Positions 17,566-45,265 of a stretch of 45,517 nucleotides of DNA are shown one piece after another. This DNA is from Hysterium pulicare CBS 123377 (taxonomy: Eukaryota > Ascomycota > Dothideomycetes > Hysteriales > Hysteriaceae): contig AJFK01000364.1 of the NCBI GenBank assembly GCA_000467715.1, forward strand, positions 1-45,517, written 5' to 3'. The notes beneath the pieces are model-generated. The model was not told where the DNA came from. It searched no databases and worked only from the letters and a program-made list of their open reading frames with translations. Both the position numbers and the translations under genes were made by a program. The first letter of the stretch is position 1, and each line of letters opens with the position of its first letter.

Positions 17566-19915
17566 TCAGATACCAGAATCTTCCTGTGTAGCTCCTGAGT
17601 TCTTGTTGAAGACGGTATAGTAAGCTGCCCAGTTCGTGCAAGTCTCGGCGTACTTGCTCAGGATGCCGGACTTGCGGAATAGCGGAGCAATATGATCTGG
17701 CTTTTCGATGAATTGGAGAGCGAGTCCGCCGCTTGCATGCCATGCGATCTGCCATTACACCTTATTAGCACAATGACGGTGCGAGTGAGGAGGTTGAGGG
17801 AAGGATAAGACTATATATGTACTGGGCGGAAAAGAAGGGAAGACTTACGTGGCAATGCATGAGCCAAGCTCCCGGGTTATCAATCTTGAAAGCAATGATG
17901 AGATAGCCATCCACAGGAAGTAGCGCCACATCTCTTCGTGGCGGGTTGTTCAAGTTCAGGGTTACCGTATCAGCATTATATTCCGTATTGCCGGAAGCCA
18001 GGACGACGAAGTCATGACCATGGACGTGGATAGGATGCGCAACAGGTGCTTGCGTCTTGTAGATCTTGCGCGTGGAGTTATCAAGAGATTCTGTGAACTT
18101 GCCCTCAATGAGGAAGTACACCCAGCTTCCCTCGGGGTAATCGAGCCAGATCGGTTGGTAATCCGTGGGAAACGGGGAGTCGGTCCACTTTTTCTGCGAC
18201 GCGATGTTGATCAAACTGAGGGATGGCTGCGTCCAATCGAGGTAGAGAGATGAGTCTTTGAGAACCCATTTGTGCAAGACGGAGGAGTTGACCGTATCAT
18301 CTGGATAGCCGACGAGATGGACTTTGAGTGATTCCTTATCCTTATTGAAATCCTTATTAACCGGGTCGGGAATGGTCCGGGGGACAACAGGTACAAGGTT
18401 CCTACCAAGCTCGTCAAGGCATCCGTAGCAAACGTGCTTTTGATTCACGGGTGGAGTCCAGGGAATGTACTTTGAGGTAGGATCATAGCGAATGATGGCA
18501 AGATTTGAGCGGGCACCACCAATGGCACAGTCTCTCGCGTGGATCCAGAAGTCATTTTGTTGCCCAGGTTTACTGGCATTAGCTTGGATAATAATGTCGT
18601 AGCGCTGTCCAATGGCAATGTTGAGCATGTCGGCGGGGTAGGGGTTGATTGGTACGAAATCCGTGCCAACGACCCAGAAACTGTGGTTATCGATCCAAAA
18701 CGTAGTGTGCGTGGACGTTCCGGTATTCACAAGACTCATTCTATAGAACTTGCCCGCCTCGAAATTGAAGGTGGTTAGTTTGGGGCTGCCAGTGCAGTTA
18801 CTGTCGGAGGTTTGGCAGCAGTAGTATGTACCGTTGCCATTTATCAACATCGAGTCAGGCGATGGAGGGCGACCTAAACGTGGCCAGCATTAGCGACCTC
18901 ACGACATCAGGCGAGATTAGAGGATATTGGCTCACCAAGATACTCAAGCATCACTTGGGAGAACGCTGTTTTGTGGAAATGGTCAGTTATCAGAACAGGG
19001 CCTAGGTCAACGTCGTAATTCATGCTTGTTGGCCCATTAATCTTCAGAGCACCGACCAGCCCGTCGGCATCTGTGATAGTCAGCTTTTGTACACGACCGT
19101 TTGAGCATTGTTAAGCATACTAACACTGTAGACTGAAGTGACCTGATATACGTCAGTATTATCGAAGAAGGGGTCAATAGAGCCAGAACGTACTATGATA
19201 CCAAGAAACCCCATATTGTGTAGCATTCCACACATAGGTAAATGACTCGCCGGGCTTTGCAAATCAGGATTTGTTTATTTTATGAGGAAGGACGAGACCT
19301 ACCGGTATCGGACACTCAGTGACTCCAGACACACCATCAAACCAATTAGAATTGAGTTGTCTAATACCATGCCAGTGGATGGAGGTGCCATTGTGATTCT
19401 CCAAATTGTTTTTGACTTTGATTCCTGGCATTATTGTCAGTTCATTTTCCGAGAATAGAAGACTGGATGAGAGACGGCGCACTAAAAGTATCCCCCCAGT
19501 TTCCTTCCAAGGTCGGACCTGGATACGTCTTGTTGAACAGCATACGATTGACTTTGTATCCATCCGGCGCGATTACTTCATTTGTGAGCTCGAGGTAGAA
19601 CTGTTCGCACACCAGTGAATTAGATATGCATCCAAGATGGGGTTTGGATGCTACGGCAGAACTCACGTCTCTGACAATGCCTTTGGGGGTATATTTTTCA
19701 TAGTCGGTGGTGATATTGAATCCGTCCGACCAGCAACGTCTATTGTTGGGGGTGTTGCAAGTACCATCTCCGATAGCAATGAGGGGCTCATGTGCGTTAG
19801 AAGACGGCGAGTTACCAACTGAAGGTGTAAGAGTAGATAGCGGGGTCTGATCTGAAACATCGGATTCAAGGAACCGCCATAAGATGAGTTCGAGAAATCT
19901 TCTCCAGAACTGCAT
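17566..19915 (-). CDS. Laccase / multicopper oxidase
   Basis: Eight exons: 19915-19667, 19600-19483, 19424-19303, 19254-19194, 19142-19125 (18-bp micro-exon), 19070-18936, 18873-17849 and 17748-17566, giving 636 aa. All four copper signatures are present: L1 [10 protein letters not shown]2 WYHSHFSLQYADG (assembled across the micro-exon), L3 [10 protein letters not shown] and L4 [16 protein letters not shown]. Leu at the axial type-1 copper position fits ascomycete laccases. The enzyme oxidises phenols with reduction of O2 to water. The N terminus ([16 protein letters not shown]) is hydrophobic but not a textbook signal peptide, so the start may be incomplete; a hydrophobic open frame lies just upstream. 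The C terminus ends GATQEDSGI, lacking the usual DSGL plug by one residue. It could also be a pigment-type multicopper oxidase. Confidence 0.92.
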
Positions 19916-21068
19916 GATGAAAACCACTATGAGTGGTATAATTGATATTCAAAAGCGGAGGAATGTGCTTAAAAGAGCGCTGGCGATGGGCATCAGAAAC
20001 GTAACGGGGCATATAAGACATAGGAAGCAGAATGCCCGTAGGAGTGGGGTTTCCGGGAGCCATGTGAGACTCAGCAGAGCTGAAAATTCCGTGGTGATAA
20101 GAACCCGCATTGCATTGTGCGTGGCGTGCTTGCAGGAGGTGGTGATAGCTAGAGCACAGCCGGTGCAACTAAAGGTACTCATTTGGGAACTGAGTTCGGG
20201 AGGTTGTTTGTCGATATGCATTGATGAAAGTCGGCAGCAGACGCATGGCGTTTTAAGCGTAGCTGAAACATGAACTGTAGTGCGGGGCTCGGCCCGAATT
20301 CTTCGGATCGGCACGCGGAGGATGGCCCAGACGACCACCCTTTTAGAAGAATTTGGCGAGCCTCTTTACTCAAACCGCTGCATGGCTCTATTTGAGGTTA
20401 ACTACAGCCCATCTTGTGACTTCAGCCAAGCTGAACCCTCTCCCTTTTAGGGTAATCTTGATCCTTTGAGCTTAAGCTGAGGCTTGCGGCTGCAGATTGA
20501 GCTGCATGCTGACCGCCATGGACTTGCTTTGCGGACGCTTAGGTTGTCAAAAACAACTTGACGTATAACGGCTTAGCGATGTTGATGAGTAGTGGTACCG
20601 GTCGCCCGCAAATGTTACAGAACCTTGATTTCGCTGGCGACTAATCCGCTGTCTACATGTTTGTAGTCGTAAGTAGCCCCTAAACAGCTTAGTTGATAAC
20701 ATAAAGCATTTTACTAACTCCTTTCTCTCCGAACAAAGACTTGTAATATACCTTATGTTCTGAAACTCAACCTTTATCAATCTTCGTTCCAATCTTTCGT
20801 GACTGGTGAGACGGACTGACGGAGCTACCGAGACCGGCATTGGCGACTGGAGCATATTTGGCGGACCTGCGTAACTGAAAATTAGCCAGCCCTTGTGCTT
20901 CCCAATATAAGCCACATGCATGGTTCGAGAATCCAGACTTTACACAACATATCCACCCCTCACTCAGCTATCAATATGGTTTTAAATACCGAAATGTCTC
21001 GGTCAAACATTTGGCAGTGCAGACTCGAATATTTGGCTTGCTCAATGCTGAGGCACAGGTAGCCCTCC
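19916..21068. promoter_or_regulatory. Divergent laccase / GH31 promoter
   Basis: 1.15 kb between divergent starts. On the laccase side a minus-strand open frame (about 20108-19949) encodes a hydrophobic ~53-residue peptide that stops 34 bp before the laccase ATG; it may be an upstream ORF or an unspliced 5' exon. A TATAAG-like element lies near 20904, roughly 165 bp before the GH31 ATG. No gene otherwise. Confidence 0.4.
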
Positions 21069-24000
21069 ATGGATCCCCCTGTTATTGCGCCAAATGACCC
21101 ATTGAATTTTGTTCCGGCCGACCTTTTCTTCAAGTATGTACCAAGATTTCAGCAACCAAAGAAAGTAATCTCTGTCATTTCATCAGACTCAGAGGACAAA
21201 ACCGATCCCCTCCGATATGCGGCATACGTAACCCTGCAAGGGACTGGAGGAGACAAAGATACTCACTGCTTGGTGCAATTCGTGACACCTCAGATCTGGA
21301 GAATAAGATACAATCCAAAGTTCGCGGGTCTCCCCCAGTATCTGGATGCAAATTCGTGAGTAAATTCAATTCAGTCATGCTAGCTACCAGATGTGCTGAT
21401 ATCTCTTTTAGTCGCACCATCGTGGAGAACAGTTTTGCCGACCTTGTCGATCACCTTCAGGATGAATCTCGCGACTCTAATGCGTGGAATTCGTATCCGA
21501 GCAGCAACAGCAAGACATGGTTTTGGAAGACCAGTTTCGAGCAGAAGGCACCTGATCACTGGATTCTGAGTGTGCGTTATCCTCTGCATAGTCCTCTTTT
21601 GGGATATGAGTTTAATCGAAGATGTAGTCAGTCGATTTTGAAAACAAAAGCGCTCCGGGCACAGTCAATACTCGTTTGCACTTCTTCGATGCGCCATTCC
21701 GGATCGTAGTACGTATTTCGAATTCTTGTTGGGAAACGAATTTTGTTCTTACGTATATTCAGGCAACGAGGGCTTTACAGCCAACGACAACGGATTCCAA
21801 TATACTTAGTGCATTGGATATGGCTAAGTCTGTCGAACAGATTATCTGGCAGACATCTCCGCAAACATTTTCTTACCAGAACAATGCCAACATCGGCGTT
21901 ATCAATGAGGTCGCCATGTCTGTCAAGAAGCCAGGACCAGCACATTATCTCGGATTTGGCGAGCAGGGAGGCCGAACAGTTCTCAAAAAGCCTACTTTCA
22001 TGAACTATTTCTGTGCGTTCTCCAACTCGAAATTAAACCACGTGACTAATTTATTATTCAACCAGGCTTTGATAACTACAATTACTCAAAGGTCTATGGA
22101 GTGGGGGCCTTGGATCCCAAGGAACCGCTGTAAGTCATCGATCCTAGCATTTACTGCGAGTACGCTCTCAATTATTAACCCGACTAGATATCATTCTACT
22201 CCATTCTATCTTGAAATGAATGGAAACCCCGGGTATTCCAACGTCACGGGGTTGATGGTTGACAATTACTCACAAGTGGCTCTGGATCTTGGCAAGACTC
22301 AATCCGGCACGATCTCTGTGGGTACACGGTTCGGAACATTTGACGCATATGTAATGACCGCTCACGATGTTCCACGAATGATATGGTATGACCCCATTAC
22401 AAGACAACGAGCCATAATACTAACAAATGTCTAGGCAATATACGTCTCTCGTAGGAAGGCCTAAGCTCAAGCCACGATTCATACTCGGCCATCATCAAGC
22501 ATGTGAGTTTAACGACGTTTATTCGGAGAGTCCCCAATAACAACCTCATAAAGGCTATGGCTATAGTAGAAACGAGCATGTCACGGCCGTGGTTAATGGA
22601 TATCGAACTTCTCAAATACCACTCGACGGAATGCATCTTGACGTTGACTTCCAGGTATATCGTTCATGCTACTAGTGAGGAACTGAAGCTTATCTCTATT
22701 TCTTATAGGACCGCTACCGCACTTTTACAGTAAACGGAATCAACTTCTCAAATGTCAGCGGCCTGCTAAAAGGACTCAAATCTCAAGGTGTCAAATGCTG
22801 CACCAACATCACGCCAATTATGACTTTGAGGGAGTCAGATACTGATCCATACCAAGCTCTACGAAATTTCTGGGACCAGAAAGATCCGTTAAATCCCGCC
22901 ACTAAGTCAGTGATACCCCTGTTGCATATGTATAAATCACGCATTAATAGCATTTCAGTCTCCTTGTGACTGATCAACGATATATGGACGGGCTACCCGG
23001 CAATACCCCGAACTGCACCAGGTATGACGGCGGACCCTTTGTCCAACCGAAGAATTTGGATCCGAATGATCTCGAAAAGAGGGGGTATTATGCCGACTAC
23101 CTTGACGACAACGACCAACCTGTGGACGTATACAGAGACAATTACGTCTTTATTGAACACGATCCGACCAAACAGCAAGGAAACTATAATAGTGGCTTTC
23201 CTTTTCACGGGGGAGTTGGTTACGGATCAAATTTGGGCACTGTAAGTCGACATCTCCCTCTGAATCTATAGATTTGATGTTTGCCGCCATTCGTACCAAC
23301 TTAATTTCCCCAAAACTTAATGACCATTCACTTACCGTACAATAGCCTGGTTACTATCCTGATCTCAACCGAGCCGTAGCACGGGACAAGTGGGGCGAGC
23401 AATACCAATACCTATTTGACCAAGGACTCGAGTTCGTTTGGCAGGACATGACCACTCCCGCCGTAGCAAACTGTTATGGCGATATGCTTGGGTAAGTTCA
23501 AATAACCAAGCCACTGTTCAGGCTCCCCAGAAACCGCTGCCGTCACAGAGACTTCCCAACAACTGACTCAAATACTAGCTTCCCTTCTCGCCTACTCATT
23601 TCAGATGACGAGTATGACCAAGATCCTACCAAGAAGCCCAAACCTAAAACAGCAATAGAGCTATGGTCACTCTACTCCTACAACCTACACAAAGCGACGT
23701 ACCATGGACTCAACCGGCTGAAAGGCCGAGAGAACAAACGCAATTTCATCATTGGTCGAGGCAGTCAAACCGGCATGCATAGATTTGCAGGCCTCTGGAC
23801 CGGTGATAACGGAAGCTCGTGGAATTTTTGGAGAATTTCAGTGGCGCAGGTCCTTGCATTAGGCTACAGCGGTTTAACCATCGCAGGCGTAGACATGGGG
23901 GGCTTCACGAAAGATCCCACCACATCATTTGGCGCTCCCAGATGGTGCGATCCGGAGCTTTTGATTCGATGGTATAGCGGCGCTTTTCTATTGCCGTGGT

Positions 24001-25405
24001 ACCGCAATCATTACCTGAAGCATTTTCACGAGAAGGAATTTCAGGTGAGAGATGTCCTCCCCAGACTACAAAAAATACGACAGCCGTTTAACCCCACCAT
24101 GTAGGAACCCTGGAGATACACCATTGCTCCAAGTCTATATCCGCAGATACCGTCGAGCCTCTACCCTCGCTACGCCTCCGTTGAGCCGATTTGTCGATAC
24201 TATGTGCAGCTTCGCTACACTCTAATGCAAGTCCTCTACGATGCCATGTTCGCCAACTTGATTCATGGTCTTCCCATTGCCCGTGCTATGGCAAGTTCTT
24301 CCTCTCCGCAAGAGGCCTTTTGCGCTAACCATCTCCATCCTAGCTAATCACCGATCCCGACGACGGGTCTCTCTTCAATGAAGGTGCTGAATTCCTCGAC
24401 AATCAGTACCTGCTCGGCCACCAAATCCTCGTTTGTCCCATTTTAGAGCCCGAGGCTACCCAAGGCCCCAGACGCAACGTCTACGTGCCCCAGTCGGATG
24501 CTTGGTATCCGTCGAATCTGCGCATCAATGTGGATGGGTATGGACCGGACCCGCTTCTTCATGCTGCTGCATTGTTGCCGGTTGTGCCAGGCGGTACCAC
24601 CTTCTCATTTGACTGCCATATCCCAGATGTGGAGAAGGAGAGAGGTCAATTGCCATATGTGACTCCTGTGTATATCCGTGCTGGTAGGTTTTTAAATTTC
24701 GTTAATGATGCTGAAACCCGCTTAAGAAATTATATGCTAACACGCACCAGGCTCTATCATTCCGCAAATCGATGTACGACAATACGTTGGTGAGAACGAT
24801 CCGAATCCACCATGCATCCATATCTACCCTGGGGATAAAGACACAGTAAGCCACTCCTCCAAGGACCAAAATCTTCCTTTCTCCGAGTTCGATATAGCTA
24901 ACAACCCATGACACAGTATTACTCAATGTACCTCGACGACGGCGTCAGCCGCGACAGTCCACCAGCAGATCTCCCCCAATACAAATACTCCCACAAGCTC
25001 GACAAATACGACGGAAGCAAAGACCCGAACGCCGTAAACGAGGCTAAGAGCAAATACAGAGAAGTCAAGATCTGGCAGCGCTTCTCCACTTCTTCAACCA
25101 CTCCTCCCACCCGCCAAATCCAACTCTCCCACCCCTGGGATAATTACGACGCTTCACCAAACGTCGGCACTGCCTACCACCTCGCGATCTGGGGCGCCGA
25201 GTCCGCTCCTTCCGATTCCAGTAATGTGACTTATTCCTTCGTCGATCAGGATGGGAAAATGGTGTCCGATGCTGGGCTTATGGCGAGTTATGATACCGTT
25301 AGGAAAGTATTGAGTGTGAGTGTGCCGGTTGGGTTGGTACCGACGTTGGTGGATGGAAAGGGAGGATATTTGGAAGTTAGGGTCGAAGGGTTGAGTGGGG
25401 TTTGA
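21069..25405 (+). CDS. GH31 alpha-1,4-glucan lyase, probable
   Basis: Sixteen exons, 1136 aa: 21069-21355, 21412-21571, 21628-21708, 21763-22012, 22066-22129, 22188-22385, 22435-22502, 22554-22654, 22709-22905, 22959-23241, 23346-23491, 23579-24044, 24105-24290, 24344-24683, 24751-24845 and 24917-25405. Intron 13 is GC-AG. The nucleophile motif reads FVWQDMTTPA (Asp597), unlike the W-DMNEP of GH31 hydrolases; the acid/base Asp688 lies in LWTGDN. Further stretches (HKATYHGLNRL, RNKRNFIIGRG, YLDDGVSRDSPPADLPQYK) match, from memory, the Morchella and Peziza alpha-1,4-glucan lyases, about 1070 aa long. Those enzymes (EC 4.2.2.13) split alpha-1,4-glucan from the non-reducing end to 1,5-anhydro-D-fructose. 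No signal peptide, so probably cytosolic, acting on glycogen or maltodextrin. Alternative: a divergent alpha-glucosidase. Confidence 0.9.
24291..24343 (+). other. GC-AG intron in the GH31 gene
   Basis: The junction ...GCTATG|GCAAGT...ATCCTAG|CTAATC restores the frame (AM-LITDPDD) and needs a GC donor. The donor otherwise matches consensus (GCAAGT) and a CTAAC branch site lies upstream of the acceptor. The other 15 introns in this gene use GT. Confidence 0.85.
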
Positions 25406-26267: not shown

Positions 26268-28638
26268 TCAAAGCATCACAAGCATCCACCCAGCCAACCC
26301 AACCACCAACCCTTCAACCAGCTTTCCCAGTCCTCCCGATTTCAACCCAGCAGCACCCCCCTTACTCTTTCCCGACTCATTAACTCCACTCGAGATAACG
26401 TTCACCGGAACCCGTCCGCTCGTCGTTGGAAACGCGCCAGAAAAAGAGCTACTAGAAGAGGGAGAGCCCGTCGTGCTTGCGCTATTCGATACCGGAGCCA
26501 AAGCGATCGTACTCGTATGTCCGTTAATAACGACCACGGAGGCAAATGCGTCGAGTGAGTATGTCGTTCCAGATATCGTTAGCACACCTCCCGCTGTGAG
26601 TGTTGTTCCTGGGCCAAGAATGAACTCGGTAGTACCACCGACTACAGTGGCGGAGTAAGTTTTATCATCGATGGTAAGAACCGGCGCTGCGGTGACTATT
26701 CCAGCGGGATGGAGAGTGGAAGTGACGCCGTTTACCACGATTACAGAACCGGATGCGCCAGCGGGGAGGGAGTACGTCGTTCCAGAAATGGTTAATTCAC
26801 CGCCTGCTGTGAGTGTTTGGCTGGGTCCAATGATGAATTCAGTCGTCCCGCCTACAACTGTAGCGGGGATAGTTTGACCGTTGATTATAAGGGCTGGCGG
26901 CCCAGTAACAAGTGGTGCGGTAGAGAGGGTTTGCGTCGCTCCGTTTACAACGGCAACAGTACCAGATGGGCCTAGGCTAAGAGTTGTTCCTTCAACGGTG
27001 ATAGCCGGGCCGCCGGGGTTTAGAGTTTGAGAGCCGATGAGGAACTGGCTATTGGAATTTGCGGTCACAGTAGATGATCCAACTGTGAGTATTGCGTGAC
27101 CGGTGGGAAGAGGTGGATTCGGATTGATGGCGAGGGTACTTCCTCCGACAACAACACTAGAGCCTCCGGCATTTGACGGGACGGAAACGATGACTCCATT
27201 GACGGTAGTTGCTTGGCCGACAGCGATAGTTTGCGATCCGATGATGACTGCTGGAGGCGCGCCAGGAGTATTTGGAGAAGCAGGGCCAACGGCAATGATG
27301 GTGTCGCCAATCGTTATAGATTGGCTAGGTTCACCACCGGCGGATTCAATGACTGTAGGGCCTTGGCTCACTTTTGGTGGGATGTCAAATCCAGTTCCAA
27401 GTATTCCCGAAAGACCTGTACTTCCCGGCAGCGCATTCTGAGAAGCTGGATTTAAGATCGAGGGTACTTGAGGAGGAAGCACTTGAGTTGGAGAGATCGA
27501 TAAACTTGCCCCGCCTGTCTGGGGGGGTTGTCTTAGAGGTCCAGAACTTTGGATATGTAACGTCGATTGAGTGAGGGAAGGTACAATCAAGGTACTAGAC
27601 TCTGTGACCAGAACGGACGAAGGTAGAGGTGGAGCGGGAGGTGATATGCGGACAGGACTCATTGTAGTTGTACAGGTAGCGATATTGGATCCATTGAAGA
27701 GGGTTTGCACCGCAGTGTTGCTTGCGAGGTAACTGATAAGTGCAGGCGGTAAGAGCACTGTTGAATCTTCATCAGCATCAGGATCCAGTGGCTGAATGAA
27801 TGGAGCCTCATTTCCATCCGGAGGTGGGAAAACATTCAAATCTTTTTGGGTGTTTTTACAGCCAGGCTCGTGTCTTTTGTCGACGAAGAGCCTTCGTTCC
27901 GGCGCAAAGTCTTCGTTGTAGTCCAGCCCTCCTTTGATATTGGTATACGCAACATAGGTGGTAGGGGCGGTTCTAGAAACATCAGCTGCCGCATGTGTTA
28001 TTACTAAAACTTTGACTCACAGTATAACATTGGGTGCCTCATTCCAGGTCCATGTAATGGTGAGGTGCATGTTTGTCTGGCTAGATGGCAAAGTTGGAGT
28101 TGAAACATTGTTGTAACTAGTCTGACTGACGGTGGTAATTGATCCGTCTCCATACGTGATAATGGAAACAAAGATAGTGCCAACAATTGTGGTAGAGATG
28201 TGCAGTGGATTGGAATAAGAGAGGGTAATAGGATCTACTGCTTCTAAAACACAGCCTGTGCAAGCGGCAGGGGCGGTAATGGAGGCATTAGAGGCACTTA
28301 GAGATTCCGAGGAAGACGCGGGGTCTAGAGTCGAAGTAACTGTCGAGGTGGCCGAGAGTTGCGGAATGTCTAGTGAAGAAAATGAAGTTATCGAAGATGG
28401 ACTCGTGGAGCGAGAACTTGAGTTAGCTGCAGTCGATTGTTAGTAAAATATGCGGAATAGCTTCAGGAGTTGAATGTTGATAGTCTTTGAGACTCACAAA
28501 AGAACGCATTTCCTAGAGTTATGTTAGCTATACATAGGGCTTGAAAGAGTTTTTTGACTTACTCCGACGGAGGCCATCTGCTTTAGTAAATGCTGCCAAA
28601 AGAGCGATAGCTGTGAAAAGAACGTAAGATCTCCACAT
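26268..28638 (-). CDS. GPI-type cell-surface repeat protein
   Basis: Four exons: 28638-28563, 28512-28498 (15-bp micro-exon), 28426-28021 and 27972-26268, giving 733 aa. The ATG at 28638 opens a signal peptide (MWRSYVLFTAIALLAAF); in-frame ATGs slightly upstream (e.g. 28656) would lengthen it. A Ser/Thr-rich region follows. A central part with TWTWNEAP and YVAYTNIKGGLDYNEDF is probably globular. From residue ~355 there are beta-type repeats; the two best copies cover ~520-660, each with TVVGGTTEFI, LTAGG.LTISGTTYSL and VVVNG/VVING. The C terminus is Ser/Gly-rich and ends in a hydrophobic tail (LVVGLAGWMLVML), as in GPI-anchored wall proteins. Function is unknown; adhesion or wall structure is plausible. 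It is divergent from the pepsin-like membrane protein. Confidence 0.85.
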
Positions 28639-39116: not shown

Positions 39117-40901
39117 CTAGAGTTCTTGTGTCTCCCAACCCGTAAGATCCGCCAGAGGTTTAGGAAACCTCTTATCCTTCAGCACATCATGAGTATATGT
39201 GAATGTGACAAGCTTGTACGTGCCATCATGACACGGTCTCAGTACAGCAGGACGACTACACCCATGCAAAACAAATATTTCATCACCGATCTCTATCGGA
39301 TGATCAGCTCGTCCAAGATATCCCGTATCCGTGGCGAAAAAGACCCGTCCAGCTGACCGCGTTGCGATGAAGGCAACAGTGACGAAGCCTTTATTATACA
39401 GTTGCGGGGACAATGGAAGGCCGGACTCGAAACTTATTTCGCTCGCGTCCTCGCCCTCTAATTCCTCACCCGTGTCCTCTTCATCCTCGTCTTGGCCACC
39501 TCTAAAAATCGTCCATATGATGCCTCGTTTGGGCAGCTCCCCTGCTCTTCTCTGGCCATATCGTACAGTTAAGGCCGAAAAGGGAATACGTTCGACCTCG
39601 CGGCAGTCATTTCCCACGACCGATAGAGCTCTCGCGACATCCGCCGGGTCGAGCCCTTCGGCTGTCGATTCGACCCTGTGAGTAGAAGACGCATGGAAGA
39701 AGCCCACTTTGCCATCAGGCTGCCTATGACGCTAATTAGACCTTTGTCAGGGTTGTGTCGAACTTCAAACGGGTTTCTCAGTGCGGATGCAGCGTAGTAA
39801 TAGGTAGACCGCATTGGAAACTTTTCAGAAACCTTCCAGTAGGTATTCCATCCTGGTACTGAGAAGTCGAGACACCAAGAGGGGAGTTGTGCGTGATTGC
39901 GCCGGCCCATTGCATTCATGTGGGTCATCCATTTTAGACCTCCGCTTTCTCTGAAGGCTTCTACCATGGCGTTCTGGTATACAAGCTCTGGGGTTGTGGC
40001 TTTTCCATAATCTGGGTTAAGGATGCTGTTTCTTCTCGGTGATATTCCGACCAGAGCAAATATATGATCCCTATGATCTCCGGCATCTCGCTCATGTGTG
40101 AAGAGGAGAAGATTCTCCCACGTCAAGGAGCCCGATCTCTCCTTCTGTTTCTCCACACTCGTTTCGTGCCAAGCTTGGCGGATAAGATGAAGACCTATGA
40201 GTAAATCCATAGCTACATCAAGCTTTATTTTCTCGTTTATCAGCATGATATAAAGAGTCTGGATCATGCGCGACGCCTGCCGCCAAGGGATAGAAACGTC
40301 TCCGCACACAAGCTATGGATCTCGTGCGACAACAAGTTCCTGTACGGTCCACATGCGACTCCACCAGTCTTTGTTGAATAGCGTCCGCAATCCCAGACGG
40401 TGAAGCTCAACCTGCGAGGCTTCTGGGAAGCGACAACGCAAGCCGTCCGCGTCCTCACCCTCGTGGGTTATAAGACTCAACTTAAATTCCATAGCTCGTC
40501 TAGTATCATTATCGGATGGACCTAGCCATACAACAACGATATACGCATTGGCGTAGACGTCTCGCATCTGCTTGTACCTGTTCAGTCCGTTCCTCTAGGT
40601 CGCCTTGATTGATGCATATAGCATCGATCCACAGGGGACGGGGTTCTCCTGTATGTCTCAATTGACGGAGCGCAACTTCGAGATTGCGTGTGACTTCGAA
40701 ATCATAGCCGTCGAGAAAGAATTTCCTTCGTTCCGACGCGTCGCCTCAGGTATAGGAAAGTGCCTCATATTCGGGTGATTTCTTCAAAGGATGCGTCTGC
40801 AGCGTGCTGTGGATATTTGCCTCTACATCTTGGGATGGCTCAAGTGTAAGTAATTGACACTCCAGGATAGAAGAGTCCAGCGGGGTGTAACTGAAACTCA
40901 T
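39117..40901 (-). pseudogene. HET-domain (heterokaryon incompatibility) pseudogene
   Basis: Reading from the ATG at 40901 gives SPEYEALSYT-stop-GDASERRKF, where the conserved Trp of the HET motif SYTWGD is a TGA (40748-40746). The frame continues with LWIDAICINQGDLEERTEQVQ, then shifts by one base near 40570-40576 before MRDVYANAYIVVVWLG. WSRMWTVQELVVARDP is followed by a TAG (40315-40313) and then LVCGDVSIPW. A further shift near 39690-39710 joins LISVIGS to the C-terminal GKVGFFHASSTHR frame, which ends at 39117. The HET core is therefore fully recognisable but broken four times. Intact HET proteins trigger cell death after fusion of genetically different hyphae. It could still be expressed as fragments. 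Introns do not explain these breaks. Confidence 0.85.
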
Positions 40902-41539: not shown

Positions 41540-43733
41540 TCAATACCCAAACGACTCGGTATGCAAGTAAATTCCTTGCGCACCGGTCCCCTTATGTACA
41601 GCCCTCTCATCACTTAGCACCACACAACTGTGCTTTACATCAGATACCAAACCCTGTGGTCCACATACAACGACCGCACTCTCACCGAGCGCTTGCTCCA
41701 AGCTCTTTCTAATGATATTTATGGGACTAGGGCGGCCTGACAGAACGGTAACGGAGGGATGTAGAAGAGGTTTCTTGGGATTGGAAGTGGAAGCTGCAGA
41801 GGAAATGAGGGAGGTTGGGCGCGGATCTGTTGGTGCACAACAGCAGCATTGAGTTTCCAAAGACCCCTCTTCGGTGTCGATGGTAGTTTTGCAGCAGCAT
41901 GTGCCGTCAGGGCCGCAGGTTGTGGGTTTCTTCTCCAATGATCCGGGGCTGGATTTGGTGTCGGAGTCGATTTCCCGGATTCCCTGTTTTGAATCTCCGG
42001 GGTTAGTCTTTTCGTCTTCGATCCCGGTGGTTCTCTGCGGGAGGTATTCAATTGCCCCATGTTGAGCTTGTTTTTCTTCCTGCTTGGGTGCCGGAGCTGT
42101 TATGTTCGAGAGAATGGATTTGTGTTCTTCGGTAAAAGAATCATCGCAGGTCACATAAATCGTCATATCCAATTCTATACCCAGCATTTGAGCTTGCAGA
42201 ATTTGGATATCAGCAAAGATAGAGGAGAGTTGTTCGGCGAACCAACCGAGTTGACCTCGGGATTTGACTACCCATACAAATCGGATGTGTCGGGTTACGG
42301 CGCCTTTTGGCTTTCTGAAAATTGAGGAGGATTGACTTGAAGGGTTGGCATTTTCTCGCCAACCTTGGACGATATCCCGGAGTAGGGGGGTGGTGAAACA
42401 TGCGCCTGTGCTGCCGGCGAGAAGAACAACACTGTCAAATTGACGAAGTGGGCGCAGAGAGCCGTATGGGCCTTCAATAGCGACTGTCTTTACTTGGGGT
42501 TTATCGCCGGTGATTCCTAGACCGTGTTGCTTTTCTGCATGCCTGAAGAATCTCCTGGTCCCGCCATGTTCGGCTTTTACCAGGAACTCCATTTTGCCAT
42601 CTTCCGGAATGGATGCAACTGTGAATGGATGGCTTTGGAGTGGAACGATTGAATGGCAAGAAAGGAACACATGCTGGCCAGGTGACCAGCTAATTGGGGG
42701 GTTTCGAATAGAGATCCTCGTCGTATCATGGGGAAGTGGGGTGAATTCTGCTTTACAGGCCCAGAAGCCAGACATTTGACCTGCCTTCCGTTGCTTGGGA
42801 TGAAAAAGTGCAAGGTTGGCGTATAGAACGCGCATTCCTCGAACGACCCGGTCAAAGAAGAAGAGTCCAACGGGTAACCATATGTAAATATGTACTTCGG
42901 CAGGGGTGTGGATGTATACGAAACCAATGAATGCGGCAAAGGAAAGGAGGTGCTGGATTACGAAAAATTCATAGCACCACCCTCGGATAGGTGTCATGGA
43001 ACTAATAACAATCCAGACCAGAATTCCCCACGCGGCCATACCTTTCCATGCTAACGTGTCCTCCTTGAGCTGAGTAAGAATGTAGTCGTATGGTGCCCAG
43101 TCGGCGAAGAAGTAGCCCATATGAATGGTCGTTGTGAGAAGCAGACATCTCGCGCACCACCGATGCAGCCAATTGATTTTTTCGTGACTAATGCCGGCTA
43201 AGAAGCCAATGATGTTGTTCTTACCAGCCAGTAGGAAAAGTAAGGGGATTTGGGCGATATTGACGAATCCGGTCCGGTATCCAATGTCCTCCCGCGACCA
43301 TCGGTCGGTGACTTTGAAACCATAAAAGCATAGAACAATCAGGGTGGTAAGGTTGGCAACAATCAAGCTAGTCCGGCCGATGGTTGGTAAACGGAATATG
43401 CGATTCTTAATGGGAATGAAAAACGAATAGTTTGATGCCTCGCGCGTTATCGCTGTAACTGTTGCGTATGCTCTCCAGAAAAGTGATTTGGGTTTGGCTG
43501 CTTTTTGCTGCCCTGCTCTGGCAGCTGACAGTCTGTCTTCTGTTAGTATATGCGACTTCGAACCACTATCGATGGGAGCTCTACCTCTGTCTGTATATGA
43601 TGTTATTAGATACGTTCACCAGGGTCGCAATTCCGATAGCTGTGCCAACCACGGCCCAGTACATCTGTGGGAAATACAGTAAAGGTGGGAGTCCACCCAC
43701 GGACATAGAGCCTGAACTCATATCCATATCCAT
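41540..43733 (-). CDS. Ferric/cupric reductase (FRE family) with Cys-rich insert
   Basis: Two exons, 43733-43585 and 43532-41540, with a 52-bp intron; 713 aa. The N terminus MDMDMSSGSMS is Met-rich. Several membrane helices form the ferric-reductase core, with heme-ligand His in HEKINWLHRWCARCLL, TTTIHMGYF and IQHLLSFAAFIGFVYIH. The cytosolic part has the FAD motif HPFTVASIPEDG, an NADPH-binding motif GPYGSLRP, and the terminal VVVCGPQGLV. The family moves electrons from NADPH through FAD and two hemes to reduce Fe3+ or Cu2+ outside the cell. An unusual insert at residues 589-615 has eight Cys (pattern C-x6-CCC-x12-CCCC), inside an otherwise Ser/Pro/charged linker. It is divergent from a CTR copper transporter, so cupric reduction feeding Cu+ uptake is a reasonable role (inference). 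Confidence 0.94.
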
Positions 43734-44674
43734 CTTGAAGATATTTCGCAATTTGTCTCTTTGGAGGTTGCGAGATATGTTGGTGAACTGATGGTGGTGG
43801 GGTGAAGTCGCTGGTAGCTGACCTAGAATAATTGTCAAATTAGGCTTCTGCTATGGCTCATAAGCTCATAGATGTTGACATGTCTCTCGTCCCGAGCAGG
43901 TTGTTCTAGAGACTGTTCAAGGAGACAAAAGACGGTCGCAAAGTTAAGTGAAGAGACAATGAGACGGAGATCAGAGGTGGCCAAAAGGCCAGCTACTTTT
44001 GGCAGCAAAAGAGGGACATTTGCTCCGGGCCCCGCGAATTGGGTAACCGGCAGACTGCTGCATGCTTGATATACACAGGCGCGATAGCGTCGTGATAGAT
44101 GGAAAGCTTGTGGTGCTTGTCTACAAGACCCTTGACTTTGCGCGGTGGCGTATCGTGAGACAAGGGACACGGGCCAATGGAAACGTGCTCAATTTGGCGC
44201 AAAGTGAGCAAAGGTGACCCCGACCAGCACCATCTTTGCGCCTGCTGGATTCGGAGAGAAGGTGGCACAAAGCGAATGCCGAGTAGCTCTTATGTCCTGG
44301 AACATGTATGATCTGTATGATATTGCTGCCAAGGGTAAGACCAGGTGCGCGGAGACTTTGTGCACTATTTGGTCCTCGTTACATTCCGTGCTTCATCCAT
44401 TCCACACCCAAGCCTAATTGTTCACAAGAGTTGTCTCAGCCATTCTTCTCATTCCTACTCCCAACCGCATTGCGTACTTCGTAAACACTGGGCGGCTCGA
44501 TTCGAACGAGACTTCATGCTAAGCGTTTTAACTTGCGCACTGTCTTCACTTCAAATTCTCCGCCAGTCGCACCCATTTCGTCAGCACATCTCTACCTCAA
44601 CGCTGCCGCAAACCACATCTCCACCTCCAGCAACTTGATCCCGCACAACAAATACAACGCTTCGCCTTCGAAAC
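43734..44674. promoter_or_regulatory. Divergent FRE / CTR promoter
   Basis: 941 bp between the two divergent ATGs. It holds five TTTGC[T/G]C cores (44019-44241) and a CCAAT box at 44174-44178. No other gene is supported in the interval. Confidence 0.65.
44019..44241. promoter_or_regulatory. Cluster of Mac1-like copper-response cores
   Basis: TTTGC[T/G]C occurs at 44019-44025 (+, TTTGCTCC), 44137-44143 (+, TTTGCGCG), 44197-44203 (-, TTTGCGCC), 44206-44212 (-, extended to TTTGCTCA at 44205) and 44235-44241 (+, TTTGCGCC). The yeast Mac1 element is TTTGC(T/G)C(A/G); the 44205 and 44137 sites match fully. An additional TTTGCTG (minus, near 44003-44009) resembles the fission-yeast Cuf1 core. Low-copper activation of both genes is inferred. 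Confidence 0.55.
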
Positions 44675-45265
44675 ATGGCTATGAACGGCATGACAATGGA
44701 TGCATCGGAGATGACTATGTCGTTCTTCTCCAGCACCTCTACACCCTTATATGCCGCGGCATGGGCTCCTAAAACCGCTGGACAGTACGCCGGAACGTGC
44801 ATCTTTCTCATTATTCTCGCATTCCTGTATCGTGGAAGCTTTACTTTAAAACATCACCTGGAACACAAGTGGCTCAAAGCTGCCATCAAGCGGAAATACG
44901 TCGTCGTCGCGGACAAGACCCCAGTTGCAGAGCGAATATCAGCAGATTCGGAGTCGAAGACGGCAGTTCTCAGCGTCAACGGGATTGAGGAAAACGTCAA
45001 AGTAGTACAAGCTCCGATCAAGCACATCCAGCCATGGAGATTCAGCGTAGATCTTCCCAGGGCAGCGTTATTGACGGTGATTGCAGGCATTGGTTACCTC
45101 TTGTAAGTTCGCAGCTGCATTCTTGACATGCCCATACTCACTCTCGATAGGATGTTGGCAGTCATGACCTACAACACTGGCTATTTCCTTTCGGTACTCG
45201 GAGGCACGTTTATGGGCGAGTTGGCCTTCGGGAGATACTTTCAACTCGACTCAGACGGGATGTAA
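44675..45265 (+). CDS. CTR-family high-affinity copper transporter
   Basis: Two exons, 44675-45102 and 45151-45265, with a 48-bp intron; 180 aa, a normal CTR length. The N-terminal ectodomain is Met-rich (MAMNGMTMDASEMTM), as used for Cu+ capture. Three membrane helices follow: GTCIFLIILAFLY, then RAALLTVIAGIGYLLMLAVMTYN with the pore MxxxM (Met144-Met148), then FLSVLGGTFMGELAF with the helix-packing GxxxG (Gly161-Gly165). The cytosolic loop between helices 1 and 2 is ~75 residues. CTR proteins form trimers that import Cu+ across the plasma or vacuolar membrane. The gene is head-to-head with the FRE reductase and shares its Mac1-like promoter cluster, which fits reductive copper uptake. A vacuolar CTR is the alternative. 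Confidence 0.95.

Follow-up and report, generated by a model that had tools for sequence, protein, structure and literature searches.

A predicted GH31 alpha-1,4-glucan lyase in Hysterium pulicare, its head-to-head laccase and its bacterial relatives

Introduction

Does the gene of glycoside hydrolase family 31 (GH31) at positions 21069-25405 of contig AJFK01000364.1 of Hysterium pulicare CBS 123377 encode an alpha-glucosidase, which releases glucose, or a lyase that produces 1,5-anhydrofructose? The whole stretch of DNA analysed here, 45,517 nucleotides, is referred to as the window. Glucan lyases open the anhydrofructose pathway, and fungal alpha-1,4-glucan lyases are known from Morchella, Peziza and Anthracobia; we presume these to be the same enzyme as the one described here, the comparison being by name. 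The accessible part of a 2025 review (PMC12441222) has the Anthracobia lyase in a reference title and gives ascopyrone and microthecin, products of the fungal anhydrofructose pathway, as reportedly antibacterial, and in the accessible part of a study of the Morchella importuna secretome three GH31 proteins are annotated as alpha-1,4-glucan lyase (PMC8185036). The kind of enzyme is already known; what this analysis adds is its pairing with a laccase, its cyanobacterial sister group, and the gene context of its bacterial relatives. We conclude that the window gene very probably encodes an intracellular alpha-1,4-glucan lyase (EC 4.2.2.13) because its nucleophile motif, an asparagine at position 436, and its clade membership agree, which supports the proposal of a first-pass annotation of this DNA that it is a lyase rather than an alpha-glucosidase.

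Gene structure and catalytic sites

The gene model was built by hand from splice signals and joins 16 exons, the number already given in the first-pass annotation, into a frame that begins with an ATG at 21069, ends with a stop at 25405, and is open for 1146 codons (Table 1). The 15 introns span 49-104 bases and 14 of them are bounded by GT-AG, with the boundary between exons 2 and 3 (21572-21627) being the weakest-founded splice of the model. The intron at 24291-24343 is GC-AG and has the sole GC donor among the 15. Two other origins of the gene were considered and rejected: a pseudogene, because the frame is open across all 16 exons, and bacterial contamination of the window, on account of the introns and the fungal neighbour genes. 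The protein matches three Pfam domains above the cut-off, namely PF01055 (GH31 barrel, 2.9e-64), PF21365 (C-terminal domain, 9.8e-12), and PF13802 (N-terminal domain, 1.1e-8). By inspection, its N-terminus, MDPPVIAPNDPLNFVPADLFF, is without a hydrophobic leader.

The translated model reads WQDMTTPA at the nucleophile, replacing the hydrolase DMNEP as the first pass had noticed, and WTGDN at the acid/base. Both catalytic aspartates, D597 and D698, align with those of isozyme 1 of the red alga Gracilariopsis lemaneiformis (PDB entry 2X2H, for which the printed chain number plus 11 equals the published number) and with those of hydrolases, while the Asn-Glu that stands behind the nucleophile Asp-Met in hydrolases (DMNE) is not found, the window protein reading DMTT. 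According to the accessible part of PMC12441222, N459 helps D553 to act as a base in the lyase, and hydrolases have Ile at this site. N436 of the window protein aligns there, and in a 35-row alignment Asn occupies the site in all 22 lyase-type rows versus one of the 12 readable hydrolase-type rows (Azospirillum); this residue belonged to none of our search patterns. It is not exclusive to the lyase type, as two paralogues from the same genome, C474 (nucleophile region WWVDWQQ) and C289 (WWIDWQQ), have Asn there as well, and because these and the Azospirillum row share it, the residue alone is no proof of a lyase. The motif QDM[TA]xP occurs in 22/22 lyase-type rows and 0/13 hydrolase-type rows, a count that is partly circular for the 18 loci taken from the genome_contigs collection because [ED]FVWQDM was one of the two patterns used in the search.

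Whole-length scores against PDB leave the matter undecided (MGAM 185.6 bits over two repeats, 2X2H 139.7, glucosidase 3NUK 139.0), and with the barrel region alone 2X2H comes top at 111.6 bits, followed by MGAM at 108.0. The window protein shares with 2X2H the GH31 barrel, FVWQDMT, TNIT with Asn 459, WxGDN, and membership of a 22-row clade, but the two are only 30% identical over the compared part. GH31 alpha-glucosidases (MGAM, 3NUK, and C441, C47, and C67 of the same genome) have the fold, the acid/base, and the nucleophile position in common with it, but they carry DMNE, have Ile, Leu, or an unread residue at the N459 site, and lie outside the lyase clade. The first-pass annotation had also likened a C-terminal segment to the Morchella and Peziza lyases; this segment, YLDDGVSRDSPPADLPQYK, is indeed present, but its LDDGVSR is not specific to fungi, as the bacterial consensus (alignment A3) reads MYLDDGxSRSSAP.

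By analogy with catalysis in the Gracilariopsis lyase, D698 would donate a proton to the departing sugar and D597 would form a covalent glucosyl-enzyme. Since Thr-Thr replaces the Asn-Glu of DMNEP and N436 can help D597 to act as a base, this intermediate should lose its C2 proton instead of being attacked by water. The elimination would yield the enol of 1,5-anhydrofructose, which would then convert to the ketone. We infer the activity, substrate, and cellular place of the enzyme from its sequence; it is most likely active on alpha-1,4-glucan, with glycogen or starch dextrins as the likely substrate.

Table 1. Positions of the predicted lyase, its catalytic codons, the adjoining laccase and members of the bacterial A2 family (positions in the window unless a locus is named)
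Feature	Position	Strand	Basis
Predicted GH31 alpha-1,4-glucan lyase gene	21069..25405	+	splice model, GH31 domains, lyase clade
Lyase exons 1-8	21069-21355, 21412-21571, 21628-21708, 21763-22012, 22066-22129, 22188-22385, 22435-22502, 22554-22654	+	splice model
Lyase exons 9-16	22709-22905, 22959-23241, 23346-23491, 23549-24044, 24105-24290, 24344-24683, 24751-24845, 24917-25405	+	splice model
N436 codon, aligned to N459 of Gracilariopsis lyase 2X2H	22805..22807	+	alignment; role of N459 from accessible part of PMC12441222
D597 codon, nucleophile in WQDMTTPA, aligned to D553 of Gracilariopsis lyase	23445..23447	+	alignment
D698 codon, putative general acid/base in WTGDN	23805..23807	+	alignment; role by analogy with GH31
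Laccase, head-to-head with lyase, C-terminal DSGI, start codon provisional	17566..19915	-	PF07731, PF00394, sequence
Shared divergent intergenic region laccase/lyase, 1153 bases if laccase starts at 19915	19916..21068	.	gene ends
A2 family members	L026 5174-5887; L042 8604-9758; L073 6708-7928		alignment A2

Relatives and phylogenetic placement

A scan of genome_contigs with the single protein found no relative of the window lyase, and neither did a scan of viral_contigs. With a two-row alignment (A1), the genome_contigs scan gave 18 loci, of which 11 are cyanobacterial, four alphaproteobacterial, one verrucomicrobial, and one flavobacterial. The remaining locus, L038 (NYXK01000221.1), is filed under a deltaproteobacterial metagenome-assembled genome (MAG), but we take it to be a fungal contig in a contaminated bin because both its lyase and its laccase are interrupted by introns; a true deltaproteobacterial source was rejected on these grounds and on a frame that we read as HET-type. 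The L038 lyase is 52-54% identical to the window protein, keeps the same catalytic sites, starts similarly (MGSVQQPNSPNLAGSEDPVNFIPAETFF), and carries YLDDGVSRSSAPTGLPQY. The cyanobacterial proteins (L026-L035) reach 36-42% identity in their best segments and share GLEFVWQDMTTPA and TNITP with the window protein. Searching plasmids with two bacterial lyases yielded 136 and 193 matching records, and the rows examined came from 20 listed of each; among the matches listed, two Rhizobium plasmids carry lyase-type proteins. Predicted GH31 proteins of the lyase type also occur in several bacterial groups. The two Rhizobium genes (L073 7962-11375, L074 7785-10841) lie on plasmids typed as conjugative, are annotated only as TIM-barrel, and have the motif QDMAVPD. 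A verrucomicrobial MAG contains two lyase-type genes in tandem (L036 5464-11437).

Three trees were built, one of 25 rows, one of 26 rows without motif columns, and one of 35 rows without motif columns. The paralogues C254, C438, C474, and C289 were aligned only, L037 (whose lyase is split over frames) was left out, RobGH31_3NUK was absent from the 26-row tree and restored in the 35-row tree, and eight of the 13 hydrolase-type rows were picked by us among the plasmid matches listed. All three trees place the window protein with 2X2H and the bacterial lyase-type proteins, apart from the hydrolase-type rows. Such a phylogeny had been proposed as a check in the first pass, and the window protein does not fall within a hydrolase clade: in the 35-row tree the 22 lyase-type rows form one clade (100/100), with 2X2H inside it and all 13 hydrolase-type rows outside. 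Within this clade 2X2H is the only characterised lyase, the Morchella and Peziza sequences being absent from the trees. The Verrucomicrobia rows are not securely placed (94/93 in the 35-row tree), and the tree program flagged long branches in the 25-, 26-, and 35-row trees.

The fungal pair, that is, the window protein and its L038 counterpart, is sister to ten cyanobacterial rows (99/98 in the 25-row tree, 100/100 in the 26-row and 35-row trees), whereas the red-algal 2X2H groups with proteobacterial and flavobacterial rows. A single clade of the fungal pair and 2X2H was rejected by the approximately unbiased test (p-AU 1.6e-9 with 25 rows, 4.6e-6 with 26 rows), a test that was fixed before the 25-row tree was inspected and after the identities had hinted at its outcome. 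This suggests that the red-algal and fungal lyases have separate bacterial connections, a statement about branching that does not imply a direction of gene movement.

The fold and the catalytic aspartate pair are the same as in GH31 hydrolases, and the accessible part of PMC12441222 reports traces of anhydrofructose formed by such hydrolases, so the gene might be thought to encode an alpha-glucosidase of the retaining type whose nucleophile motif has changed but whose main product is still glucose, with 1,5-anhydrofructose as a side product only. Since the protein lacks the Asn-Glu of hydrolases, has Asn at the N459 site, and shares a clade with 2X2H, we regard this as very improbable. A comparably slight chance attaches to a lyase-type protein that acts on another alpha-glucoside or is inactive. 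Activities within the clade may differ, because 2X2H alone is characterised in it and the two Rhizobium rows show QDMAVP, but the 16-exon frame is open, both catalytic aspartates are kept, and the second fungal lyase retains the same sites at 52-54% identity. We also counted in favour of an alpha-1,4-glucan lyase that a homologue of aldos-2-ulose dehydratase, otherwise rare in the phylum, lies beside 4 of the 11 cyanobacterial lyases (see below).

A head-to-head laccase in two fungi

The laccase of the window is transcribed divergently from the predicted lyase (Table 1) and ends in DSGI, a C-terminus typical of ascomycete laccases. In L038 a laccase stands head-to-head with the lyase in the same arrangement, separated by about 0.9 kb in our reading; it ends in DESGI and has a hydrophobic leader, MLLLLLLLVAGLLGRVANA. 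A fragment of this laccase gave 29 matches in the Hysterium genome, which we grouped into about 20 multicopper oxidase loci. The window laccase came first (1.8e-75, 53% over residues 7-259); the locus in second place reached 2.8e-33 (40% over 12-254), and another long match is 33% identical over 12-267. Introns in the other genes depress their scores somewhat, but the window laccase is still the best among the long matches. When L038 and L072 (27.7 kb together) were compared with the window, one matching frame was found besides the lyase and laccase. It resembles window 39.8-40.9 kb and is HET-type by our reading, with Pfam naming nothing in the window frame 39569-40312. The laccase-lyase pair is kept in two fungi while its surroundings are not, and two cases establish no function.

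The chances are even, in our judgement, that the pairing is a coincidence or an ancestral neighbourhood without working meaning. The comparison covers two fungi only, a secretion leader is present in the L038 laccase but seemingly absent from the lyase, and laccases are numerous in fungi, as the many loci of this genome illustrate. Against a chance pairing, the lyase, the laccase, and one HET-type frame are all that has a counterpart in the window within 27.7 kb of the second contig, and the L038 fragment prefers the window laccase to the next locus (1.8e-75 versus 2.8e-33). Any working link between lyase and laccase is putative. The accessible literature brings the terms "glucan lyase" and "laccase" together in the Morchella secretome study and in a hemp paper.

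Further neighbours named by Pfam are a GH30-like gene, an arabinofuranosidase C-terminal domain, and a sugar transporter, and there is a second sugar transporter as well; the first-pass description of a laccase and plant-polymer genes beside the lyase was right. At 41540-45106 a ferric reductase-type gene adjoins a Ctr copper transporter, and the laccase in the same window is a copper enzyme. Downstream of the lyase, a long repetitive single frame at 26268-28016 on the minus strand has no Pfam match.

Gene context of the bacterial lyases

At the four cyanobacterial loci mentioned above (L026, L028, L035, and L027, a fragment at a contig end), a gene upstream of the lyase belongs to one and the same blast cluster. 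Its L026 copy matches the aldos-2-ulose dehydratase 4A7K at 2.3e-73 and PF22301, the dehydratase propeller, at 7.7e-52. PF22301 matches the copies of L026, L028, and L035, which are three of the seven lyase-bearing genomes tested, and none in the other four; it exceeds the cut-off in two of 386 sampled cyanobacterial genomes, one of them the centre genome. We take aldos-2-ulose dehydratase to act also on anhydrofructose. At L026 3784-9075, L028 3725-9159, and L035 4010-9078 the homologue stands in an operon with the lyase and a partner gene that we call A2, and these three operons are candidates for a complete anhydrofructose pathway. A second PF22301-positive cyanobacterial copy (L085 1-7511) has neither a lyase nor an A2 gene within the 12.4 kb that were read, where a GMC oxidoreductase is present; the same enzyme could be reached there by way of a pyranose oxidase.

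The unnamed A2 family lies next to the lyase at 14 of the 19 prokaryotic loci (cyanobacteria 9/11, alphaproteobacteria 2/4, flavobacteria 1/1, Verrucomicrobia 0/1, and Rhizobium plasmids 2/2) and has the conserved motifs HxxH, EIHTQ, and YPWHQY. Four members had no Pfam match at 0.001; matches to PF18637, the cupin domain of aldos-2-ulose dehydratase, are weak, and the fold can at best tentatively be called cupin-like. Among the matches listed in our literature searches for glucan lyase, its products, aldos-2-ulose dehydratase, and fungal GH31, no title or abstract dealt with cyanobacterial lyase operons or a laccase-lyase pair; bacterial lyases may be mentioned in a paper on the GH31 subfamilies and in one main review, which this coverage did not include.

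Paralogues and downstream enzymes in the Hysterium genome

A GH31 family search of the 37.2 Mb Hysterium assembly had matches on at least 10 contigs. The window lyase is without a close paralogue, its best other match in the genome being 36% identical over residues 655-865 (E 2.3e-13). The nucleophile region could be read in seven of nine paralogues (C254 and C74 were unreadable there), and QDMT was found in none of them; C145 and C74 have no gene models.

The first-pass annotation had proposed looking for genes of anhydrofructose dehydratase and reductase. No dehydratase gene was found in this genome with PF22301, for which the three positive bacterial genomes served as control, or with PF18637 and the L026 dehydratase-like protein, searches without a positive control; reductases were not searched, as the family is too broad. 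The record holding L038 had no PF22301 match either. The partner proteins of L026, that of L042, and a DNA pattern for YPWHQY were also unmatched in the Hysterium genome, again without a positive control. The cyanobacterial loci differ from the window gene in having no introns and in the presence of A2 (9/11) and of the aldos-2-ulose dehydratase homologue (4/11). These searches of the Hysterium genome turned up neither, though it may still encode an unrelated dehydratase.

Implications

It is conceivable, though on balance we think it rather unlikely, that glucan lyases reached eukaryotes on two or more separate occasions: the source for red algae would have been of proteobacterial type, and that for fungi of cyanobacterial type, with operons that convert glycogen into antibiotics derived from anhydrofructose. 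In fungi the lyase would then have joined a secreted laccase in a two-gene unit under a common divergent promoter, and laccase chemistry, whether on exported anhydrofructose, on its reductones, or in pigment or defence, would replace the dehydratase that was not found. For the pathway that glucan lyases open, the bacterial loci described here offer candidate genes, including the unnamed A2 partner family, and the head-to-head laccase in two fungi gives the fungal lyase a concrete candidate partner.

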